64,000 nucleotides of DNA from Lachnospiraceae bacterium YSB2008 (GTDB lineage Bacteria; Bacillota; Clostridia; Lachnospirales; Lachnospiraceae), in assembly GCA_000687655.1 (NCBI GenBank), contig JHWR01000001.1:62001-126000 (forward strand), written 5' to 3'. The notes beneath the pieces were generated by a model, which was not told where the DNA came from, did not search any database, and saw only the letters and a program-made list of their open reading frames with translations. Of the stretch, positions 36,215-59,440 are shown piece by piece (the stretch's first letter is position 1; each line of letters begins with the position of its first letter). Made by a program: the position numbers and the translations under genes.

Positions 36215-36437
36215 TGACCTACAAAAAGGGAAGCAGCGAACCGCTGCTCCCCAAAATTCGCGAATCTTTTATATCCAAAGTGCCGGTTCCTACCTTTTTG
36301 ACTCCTAGCCGCAGCCAGGTGGGTGTTCTCAACTGGTATTCTGAAGTCCACTCAGAGGAGGCATGTCATCCAACCACGTATGTAAAACTCCCTTTAAAAA
36401 AATGTAGGCTCAATAACAGCAGGAAGTATCGCACACC
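36215..36437 (-). ncRNA. structured small RNA, 6S-like (candidate)
   Basis: A stretch of about 220 bases without a credible gene folds on the minus strand. The ends close as a long stem (36403-36409 with 36217-36223, and 36390-36395 with 36225-36230), and a hairpin with a UGCG tetraloop (36304-36309 with 36314-36319) sits in the middle. G-U pairs that keep these stems intact on the minus strand would become A-C mismatches on the plus strand, which sets the orientation. The length, the closed-rod layout and a candidate -10 upstream fit 6S RNA, the regulator that binds sigma-A polymerase; the sequence itself is not proof. Alternative: a leader RNA controlling the BrkB-like gene. Confidence 0.5.
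36223..36252 (-). terminator. terminator at the 3' end of the structured RNA
   Basis: On the minus strand an 11-bp stem (36242-36252 with 36228-36238, one G-T pair, GTT loop) is followed by five T. It ends 13 bases before the BrkB-like start. Its 3' arm also belongs to the closing stem of the RNA, so the two folds compete. Confidence 0.75.
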
Positions 36438-36443
36438 CCAGAT

Positions 36444-36467
36444 ACTATACTTTTACGATTCGTAAAA
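36444..36467 (-). promoter_or_regulatory. -10 element with adjoining palindrome
   Basis: TATAGT (36444-36449) on the minus strand would start transcription near 36437. Directly upstream is a near-perfect palindrome, TTTTACGATTCGTAAAA (36451-36467, 8-bp arms around one base), in the place of the spacer. No clear -35 box is seen, so an activator or repressor at the palindrome is possible. Confidence 0.4.
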
Positions 36468-52448: not shown

Positions 52449-52598
52449 TTACTTTGTTTCCTTATGCATAGTGTGAGCTTTGCAGAATTTACAATACTTC
52501 TTTGTTTCCATTCTGTCAGGATGTGTTTTCTTATCCTTTGTCAGATTGTAGTTACGCTGTTTACATTCCTGACATGCCAGTGTGATTTTTACTCGCAC
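52449..52598 (-). CDS. rpmG: 50S ribosomal protein L33
   Basis: 49 residues with a GTG start (GGAGGTG 7 bases upstream). The zinc-type pairs CQEC (residues 9-12) and CKFC (36-39) are present, followed by the basic end TMHKETK. It is the first gene of rpmG-secE-nusG-rplK-rplA and too short for usual ORF filters. Confidence 0.93.
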
Positions 52599-52640
52599 AA
52601 CTTTCACCTCCGTATATAATTATTTTAGGATTTCTTACAT

Positions 52641-52824
52641 GTAGCTGTTCACGTACGGCATCCCTCAATCGATGAACCATCCGCTTCGCGTCTGCCGCGG
52701 CTGAAGCCGCTTCTGTTCATCGATGTCGTGATGCGTACCTGTACCAGGCACACATGTAAACTCTCATTCCTACGGCTGCAAGCAGCCGACGGATGTTAGT
52801 TTACATGTGTCCGTGAACAGCTAC
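52641..52824. repeat. 184-bp cloverleaf-forming element upstream of rpmG
   Basis: Nested perfect inverted repeats: outer stem 52641-52653 / 52812-52824 (13 bp, GTAGCTGTTCACG); arm 1 52658-52662 and 52668-52677 / 52715-52724 and 52730-52734, tipped by GCGGC-TGAA-GCCGC (52697-52710); a small hairpin CCTG/CAGG (52738-52748); arm 2 52750-52762 / 52798-52810 (13 bp), tipped by CGGCTG-CAAG-CAGCCG (52773-52788). The whole folds as a four-way junction. No ORF lies inside. Options: MITE-like or REP-like palindromic repeat, or a structured RNA. Perfect pairing without G-U bias points to DNA-level selection or recent insertion. Confidence 0.8.
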
Positions 52825-52833
52825 TTTATTGCA

Positions 52834-52908
52834 CGCAAAAAAATAAGGGCTTTCAATCCCACGGAGTACAATCTAACATATACCGTCTGGGAAATCAAGC
52901 CCTTTTTT
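52834..52908. terminator. bidirectional terminator after uppP
   Basis: AAGGGCTT (52845-52852) pairs with AAGCCCTT (52897-52904), and CCC/GGG and CGG/CCG continue the stem inward around a long AT-rich loop. T7 follows on the minus strand (A run 52837-52843) and T6 on the plus strand. With the cloverleaf element it fills the 349-base gap between uppP and rpmG. Confidence 0.8.
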
Positions 52909-52947: not shown

Positions 52948-53799
52948 TCATCCAACCAGTGCTTTTATCGCAAAGAACAGAAGAACAAATACACCGAGTG
53001 CGATTCTGTAGTAACCGAACACCTTGAAATCATGTTTCTTGATGTAGTCCATGAAGAACTTGATTACTATGATAGAAACACCGAATGCAACGAGCATTCC
53101 AAGGAGAAGTGAGAACACCTCATATGCCTTAAGTGAGAATCCGTCGCTCGTAGCATACTTAATGATCTTTACAAGACTGGCACCGAACATAACCGGTATA
53201 CCAAGGAAAAATGTAAAGCTCGCCGAAAGCTGTCTGCTGACACCGAGTGTAAGTCCACCTATTATAGTAGAACCCGATCTTGAGGTTCCCGGTATAAGTG
53301 AAAGCACCTGGAAGCATCCGATAAGGAATGCCGTCTTCAGATCAAGCTTTGACATCTTTGTTATCTTCGATTTCTTATTCTTGTTCTTATTCTCGATCCA
53401 TATAAACCATACACCGTATACTATAAGTGCTATAGCAATTACCACAGGCTTATGCAGATGTTCTTCCAGCCAGTCATCCAGGAGAATTCCGAGAACAGCT
53501 GCAGGGATACAGGCAACTATAACCTTTATCCAAAGGTCTATAGTTTTCTTATCAACAGTCAGCTCTCCCCTCTTACCTCTTTTGAAAGGCCAGAGTTTAT
53601 CAAAATACATATAAACTACAGCAAGTATAGCTCCGAGCTGAATGACTACAAAGAACATCTCCTTGAAGCCTTCAGACATACGAAGATGAATAAACTCATC
53701 CACCAGAAGCATATGACCCGTACTGCTTATAGGAAGCCATTCGGTAATGCCCTCAACTATTCCGAGGAAAATAATCTTCAAGATTTCTAGTATTATCAT
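52948..53799 (-). CDS. uppP: undecaprenyl-diphosphatase (BacA/UppP)
   Basis: About 283 residues, eight or so membrane helices. The two family motifs are present: [15 protein letters not shown] (about 13-27) and [13 protein letters not shown]. It recycles the carrier lipid for cell-wall and polysaccharide synthesis. ATG 53799 is used because GGAAGG lies 8 bases upstream; a GTG ten codons earlier has no clear site. It follows the ABC exporter genes, which also move undecaprenyl-linked sugars. Confidence 0.93.
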
Positions 53800-53832
53800 G
53801 CCTTTACCTTCCATTATCATAATGTTCACCCA

Positions 53833-59252: not shown

Positions 59253-59291
59253 ACTAAGCTTATTTCACAAATTGTTAATACACTAATAATT

Positions 59292-59311
59292 ATAGTCATT
59301 TTAATGACTAT
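59292..59311. promoter_or_regulatory. operator-like palindrome, site 1
   Basis: ATAGTCATT and AATGACTAT form a perfect 20-bp palindrome, 40 bases upstream of the DUF2752 gene. Confidence 0.7.
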
Positions 59312-59359
59312 GTCAATCATTTATTGCGACCCAAACATGTCGAATCCCAAAAGACAAAT

Positions 59360-59379
59360 ATAGTCATTTTTATAACTAT
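59360..59379. promoter_or_regulatory. operator-like palindrome, site 2
   Basis: ATAGTCAT/ATAACTAT, one mismatch from the perfect form of site 1, stands 61 bases before the XRE gene ATG, a position fit for autoregulation. Confidence 0.65.
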
Positions 59380-59440
59380 AATCATTTTAGAAATCATATT
59401 CTATATTTTAACTATCCAATACATGAAAGGATAGAATACT

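Follow-up and report, generated by a model that had tools for sequence, protein, structure and literature searches.

Miniature inverted-repeat transposable elements (MITEs) are usually seen as decaying remnants. The bacterial MITEs ERIC, QMITE2, NEMIS and BOX are described in a review as short, intergenic and bounded by inverted ends, with transcripts that are predicted to fold, and direct repeats of 7–9 bp are given for QMITE2 (PMC10969869); the term "IS66" has 0 occurrences in the main text of this review. Other small mobile palindromes are the REPs, reported to carry GTAG at one end (PMC3733652), and the REPINs, described as RAYT-linked pairs of inverted REPs with a simple hairpin between them, this spacer hairpin being kept by compensatory changes (PMC3116915). 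Among the insertion sequences of the IS66 family, ISDge4 is reported as an active member of the ISBst12 group with the ends GTGACTACTCAGCA / GTAACTGCTCAGCA and an 8-base direct repeat CCTCGATG (PMC12898284). A literature search of the titles and abstract openings of open-licence papers retrieved no description of the element family reported here or of any IS66-type MITE.

The element analyzed here is 184 bp long and lies in a stretch of 64,000 nucleotides (the window) from Lachnospiraceae bacterium YSB2008, between two genes that we, like the initial annotation, take from their proteins to be uppP and rpmG. It is a gene-less mobile element that occurs in a family of bacteria from gut and rumen; its mobile part is of a known kind, and the kept cloverleaf fold is the new part. 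As a whole, it is very probably an IS66-type MITE whose fold has been kept while its letters changed, and the copy in the window an old insertion into the rpmG leader. With the ISBst12 group, e.g., ISDge4 as described, it shares the GTAACTGCTCAG / GTTACTGTTCAC type of terminal repeats and a target duplication of 8 bp, but it lacks a transposase gene, is about 184–190 bp in size and has a conserved folded body. It resembles the described features of ERIC, QMITE2, NEMIS and BOX, but its four-way architecture is fixed and shows pair-by-pair covariation across genera, which sets it apart from them. REPINs are likewise mobile palindromes with compensatory changes; in contrast to their reported layout, a cloverleaf with IS66-type ends is found here.

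In silico folding as DNA yielded a four-way palindrome at 52641–52824. The DNA folding energy of the region 52601–52864 was −58.6 kcal/mol, compared with −27.6 ± 3.4 kcal/mol for 200 shuffled sequences (z = −9.0), and 0 of the 200 reached the observed value. RNA folding of the same region resulted in z = −8.3. The initial annotation had described a cloverleaf too large and too exact for chance that contains no gene. Its coordinates and stems were found to be correct by sequence, fold and inverted repeats, and no open reading frame of at least 40 aa was found within the element. The outer stem is perfect over 13 bp, with 52641–52653 paired with 52812–52824. On the strand that is in sense with rpmG, the order is GTAGCTGTTCACG, arm A, middle hairpin, arm B and the terminal repeat CGTGAACAGCTAC. 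The features are as follows:

52641–52824, minus strand (the sense strand): whole element, very probably an IS66-type miniature inverted-repeat transposable element (fold, copies, empty site, ends)
52641–52653, no strand assigned: terminal inverted repeat GTAGCTGTTCACG, one side of the outer stem (inverted-repeat scan and comparison with the GTTACTRTTCAC ends)
52812–52824, no strand assigned: terminal inverted repeat, second side of the outer stem (inverted-repeat scan)
52654–52737, minus strand: arm B, a 5+10 bp stem bearing a three-way junction with two small hairpins on top (sequence, fold, inverted-repeat scan)
52665–52726, minus strand: arm B core, matched by the covariance model R1 with 71.5 bits, this copy being itself one of the 11 sequences behind R1
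52678–52694, minus strand: arm B mini-hairpin 2, sense strand CAGACGC-GAA-GCGGATG (sequence, alignment)
52697–52710, minus strand: arm B mini-hairpin 1, sense strand GCGGC-TTCA-GCCGC (sequence, alignment)
52738–52748, minus strand: middle hairpin, sense strand CCTG-GTA-CAGG, forward strand CCTG-TAC-CAGG (sequence, fold)
52749–52811, minus strand: arm A, a long hairpin with the sense-strand tip CGGCTG-CTTG-CAGCCG (sequence, inverted-repeat scan)
52870–52898, minus strand: promoter-like TTGATT-17-TAGATT (by eye; aligns with promoter-like boxes of relatives)

An Rfam search yielded no family at the cut-off for the element; below the cut-off only microRNA families were listed, with E values from 0.03 to 3.8. 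The sole Rfam match in the window was a 6S RNA at 36268–36447 on the minus strand (76.7 bits, cut-off 46.4). Elsewhere in the window, at 59285–59386, an A+T-rich inverted repeat of 38 nt with 74% complementarity surrounds 26 nt.

The observations made on the family comprise dispersed copies, matching ends, 8-bp target duplications, IS66-type elements with like ends and an empty site. They support the palindromic mobile repeat that the initial annotation had considered possible. In the following, G numbers denote the genomes compared, with G000 for the window's own genome, and L numbers the loci. A DNA search of the own genome revealed further weak copies with 76–87% identity over parts, which have other stem letters in the same layout. 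The covariance model R1 was built from a MAFFT alignment of 11 arm B cores, the window copy included. In the own genome, it had 8 core matches, distributed over 6 places. Within the genus, 43 of 61 genomes had matches (E ≤ 0.01), as did 26 of 397 sampled genomes of the family Lachnospiraceae (E ≤ 0.001), two of the 26 belonging to the window's genus, own genome included. In a class-wide sample of 391 genomes only the own genome was matched (E ≤ 1e-4); the genus, family and class-wide searches used stricter large-search filters, and absences there are soft. No match to the element was found in viral contigs by a pattern scan or in plasmids and phages by similarity searches. A pattern scan across named genomes had four hits, one of which, L177 in Thermohalobaculum, was taken for chance.

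Several variants of the element were noticed. L183–L186 and L194 (in G381 and G176) are short palindromes with little beyond the two terminal repeats and are apparently internal deletions. L157 (G000:C16), L021 (G010), L084 (G002) and L085 (G016) are tandem arrays of 2–3 arm B units about 70–130 bases apart. In the arm B copy L296 (G023:C13:36398–36509), mini-hairpin 2 is longer by about 50 bases of extra palindrome. At L024, L025 and L020, inspection by eye showed that the stop codon of the preceding gene is provided by the beginning of the element or overlaps with it.

In other genera, young, near-identical copies have the clean ends GTTACTRTTCAC...GTGAAYAGTAAC (G381, G176, G226) or GTAACAGTTCAG...CTGAACTGTTAC (G135). 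In G381, 85 sites matched the end pattern when up to one mismatch was allowed, compared with 5 for the reversed control. The flanks of copies in other genera matched at 7–8 of 8 bases in 12 of 38 cases, compared with 0.36% of mismatched pairs; among the 38 flank pairs are those of six short palindromes that consist of the ends only and of eight G206 copies, the ends of which were defined differently. All 4 full copies of G135 and all 3 of G226 belong to the 12 matching pairs. No target duplication was visible for the window copy, the flanks of which, GCAATAAA / ATGTAAGA, are equal at 2 of 8 positions. Comparison of its end GTAGCTGTTCAC with the ISDge4 end GTAACTGCTCAG showed like terminal repeats.

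In G381, a locus was found (L181) at which like ends, 2.27 kb apart, enclose an IS66-family transposase, with AGTTACTGTTCAGGGGGCGGGG repeats. The protein matched PF03050 with an E value of 4e-23 and 82.6 bits (cut-off 23.1), and it reached 161.8 bits with the NCBIfam IS66 model, which is below the cut-off of 180. Its placement in the ISBst12 group is based on the ends and the single long gene, not on a tree. Eleven related IS66-type loci were retrieved from 397 genomes, and 8 of the 11 have GTTAC-type ends (GTTACTGTTCAC etc.); an exact 8-bp duplication was present at 3 of these 8. No 8-bp duplication was seen at L181 and L202, which are insertion sequences with matching ends. A matching transposase is present in G381 and G135. 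No relative of the L181 transposase was found in the own genome or in seven other genomes of the genus that were tried, and therefore, the copies in the genus may be stranded. In plasmids, the L181 transposase had no match at E ≤ 1e-50. The sole PF03050 match in G000 was rejected as a partner because it has different ends (GGTAGTGTCAAGT), and a broken IS66-like fragment was found in G012. As judged from the sequence, the ends are of the IS66 family and closest to the ISBst12 group, which has a single transposase gene. An IS66-type (ISBst12-like) transposase would move the element in trans and would duplicate 8 bp of the target.

The terminal GTAG of the window copy had led the initial annotation to think of REP elements and RAYT transposases. 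A REP or REPIN moved by a RAYT tyrosine transposase would share with the element this GTAG, the palindromic body and the extragenic location. However, both ends are paired inverted repeats, and the GTAG is merely the paired start of one of them, with GTTAC or GTAAC in other copies. Inverted ends of this kind and the 8-bp target duplications are as in IS66-type elements, and a RAYT-moved origin is highly improbable. Taken together, the ends, the 8-bp duplications and the IS66-type loci with like ends argue for a MITE of the IS66 type and not for a REP.

The reading frames of rpmG (52449–52607) and uppP (52948–53829), both on the minus strand, end outside the element, and the two frames behind rpmG are presumably secE and nusG. 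The promoter-like −35 and −10 boxes, 4 of 6 in each box, are located on the minus strand at 52893–52898 and 52870–52875, respectively; a consensus promoter scan did not find TTGATT-17-TAGATT, which remained below its threshold. As these boxes are upstream of the element, transcription of rpmG and of the two frames that follow would start before the element, which would be part of their leader. This refines the earlier placement at the promoter region of an essential operon: the element is not on the promoter itself. Among 16 rpmG leaders of the genus that were read, the element was present in two, those of the own genome and of G012, and the window copy is therewith common to one other species among those read. 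On the upstream side, the G012 element starts at the same base as the window copy. G023, which has the most similar rpmG protein, has the same neighbors at rpmG and is element-free, i.e., it represents an empty site. The low occupancy and the absence of the element from the relative with the most similar rpmG speak against a conserved rpmG regulator as a reading of the leader RNA, the second suggestion of the initial annotation; a more general role of elements of this type as RNA is possible. By these comparisons, the window copy is best read as an old insertion in the rpmG operon leader and not as a conserved rpmG regulator.

Two further observations were made by eye at rpmG leaders. In the window (52837–52898, minus strand) and at L033–L036, the rpmG promoter-like boxes are often directly before a small G+C hairpin and a T run (e.g., GCGTTTTTAGCGCTTTTTTT), which is attenuator-like and near the transcription start. 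A different insert, about 90 bases long and bounded by the inverted ends ACTTTTCGACAGG...CTTGTCGAAAG, is present in the rpmG leader L035 (G007) and absent in the otherwise similar L034.

The conservation of the fold was quantified with two alignments. In the MAFFT alignment of 11 cores, 98.2% of 228 cells were paired, and 10 of 21 pairs changed on both sides. For 105 distinct cores, 97.6% of 2121 cells were paired, double changes occurred in 20 of 21 pairs, and 661 of the 2121 cells differed on both sides from the commonest pair; this alignment was fitted to the model, and its cells count sequences, not events. Covariation was strong: the covariation score of the 105 distinct cores was 0.757, compared with 0.208 for shuffled alignments and at most 0.081 for slid structures. 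For one of five covariation measures, further pair types, 44 of 500 shuffles attained the observed value. Nine sites are common to two to five species of the genus, and at these sites the stems differ and yet stay self-complementary. They include a site after AtpE (G007, G062, G023, G026, G061) and one after GroEL (G000, G023, G012), names that we assume from the protein ends. The self-complementarity of arm A at the nine sites averaged 0.81 within a copy and 0.58 when cross-paired between species (26 copies, 62 cross comparisons), with arms delimited by folding each copy, which raises the within-copy value. The unpaired junction letters, the loop types and the hairpin order are also conserved. 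Covariation and shared sites thus show that a fixed architecture of long arm A, middle hairpin and three-way arm B is kept while the letters change. As the stem letters change between species and the fold is kept, the results suggest that the folded shape itself is useful, and the fold seems to be under selection.

An explanation without function would be that of an ordinary MITE, the palindromes of which are mutational by-products because template switching repairs one arm from the other. The well-paired stems with quite different letters and the large number of cells with differences on both sides are in agreement with this, and the within-copy value of arm A is biased upward by the fold-based delimitation. 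However, single-sided changes outnumbered double changes in young copies, by 146 to 46 in 8 copies of G381 and by 183 to 131 in 7 copies of G176. Therefore, double changes are not made at once and repair is not rapid, and slow selection fits better than rapid arm-to-arm copying; the same excess shows decay as much as constraint. The conserved junction letters, loop types and hairpin order also speak against mere by-products, as does the orientation of the copies in the genus, so that we regard this explanation as rather unlikely. Orientation was analyzed for 99 loci (49 of the genus, 50 of others) chosen from the R1 matches, not for all matches. In the genus, 38 copies had the same orientation as both neighboring genes and 3 had the opposite orientation to both (49 loci; p 1e-8), or 26 to 2 among 32 sites when shared sites were counted once (p 3e-6). 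Twenty further loci of the genus showed a weaker bias (9 to 3, with 6 mixed and 2 unclassified). In other genera, the ratio was 19 to 16 (50 loci); for the six multi-copy genomes, it was 14 to 13. This absence of bias indicates that insertion itself looks unbiased and that the bias in the genus is due to retention or to a different mechanism. In the genus, old copies would remain between co-oriented genes, the folded strand being tolerated or useful, and the body would be at work as a folded single strand, for the window copy the one that has the sense of rpmG. In G002, which is a complete genome, the sense strand ran along the leading strand at 9 of 10 sampled places with clear GC skew (12 places looked at, 2 near the skew switch left out, 15 of 19 core matches listed), and three of the leading-strand places lie between genes that disagree in direction. 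The directions of transcription and replication are confounded at most loci.

The body may be kept as a folded RNA inside operon mRNAs, as an intercistronic stabilizer, processing site or spacer, as proposed for REPs; this is quite possible, though short of probable. It is in accordance with the orientation in the genus, with the copies after atpE-like, groEL-like (presumed names) and other operon genes at multi-species sites, with the RNA fold, and with the arm A tip CTTG in 23 of 57 cases. In the core alignment, G.T pairs exceeded A.C pairs by 35 to 7, or by 15 to 7 when counted by distinct pair and type, but the alignment was made by a model that favors G.T. The 35 G.T pairs make up only 1.7% of 2121 cells, compared with 207 of 1585 (13%) in a 6S RNA control. 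The gap narrows when the 6S control is restricted to pairs with at least 60% (69 of 1377, 5.0%) or at least 80% Watson-Crick pairing (33 of 1140, 2.9%), and all 21 core pairs meet the latter rule. Counts of isolated mismatches without G.T preference showed no significant excess of G.T over A.C. One count, which used 107 of 113 R1 matches and omitted L095 (duplicate of L170) as well as five other matches that were second or weak ones, gave 12 to 10; another gave 15 to 9 within the genus and 6 to 12 outside it. GNRA tetraloops were few, 6 over four hairpins. Alternatively, the body may be kept as folded single-stranded DNA, on the lagging-strand template, in transposition or against palindrome loss. 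The scarcity of G.T pairs and the G002 places, including those between disagreeing genes, are consistent with this, but G002 is one genome with 12 places, and G.T pairs are still more frequent than A.C pairs. IS66 transposases are DDE enzymes and are expected to use double-stranded ends, which also argues against it. In three automatically picked hairpins, sense-strand GNA triloops were found in 28 of 49, 33 of 58 and 37 of 67 cases, and the reverse type TNC in 2 of 174. GNA loops are reported to form extraordinarily stable DNA mini-hairpins (PMC4686876). The energy parameters used give no bonus to GNA loops. Such loops occur in RNA, too, and on balance, a role as folded DNA appears unlikely. 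In summary, the GNA loops and the strand bias in G002 lean towards folded DNA, whereas the location within operons and the G.T to A.C ratio of 35 to 7 lean towards RNA.

For the preferred reading of an IS66-type MITE with a kept fold, a possible use would be the protection or separation of parts of an operon mRNA; alternatively, the element might fold on the exposed lagging-strand template during replication. A further-reaching proposal, doubtful though not far-fetched, is that DNA transposon remnants carry a selected single-strand fold, a GNA-capped four-way junction, which compensatory changes restore at the same sites in operons (after atpE-like and groEL-like genes, before rpmG) and which outlasts its letters, either as lagging-strand-template DNA or as mRNA. 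In view of the scarce G.T pairs and the GNA loops on one strand, it would be worth testing if folded DNA or folded RNA is the target of selection. The same fold at the same intercistronic sites across species, with letters that turn over, makes the question of whether MITEs become functional parts of operons directly testable.
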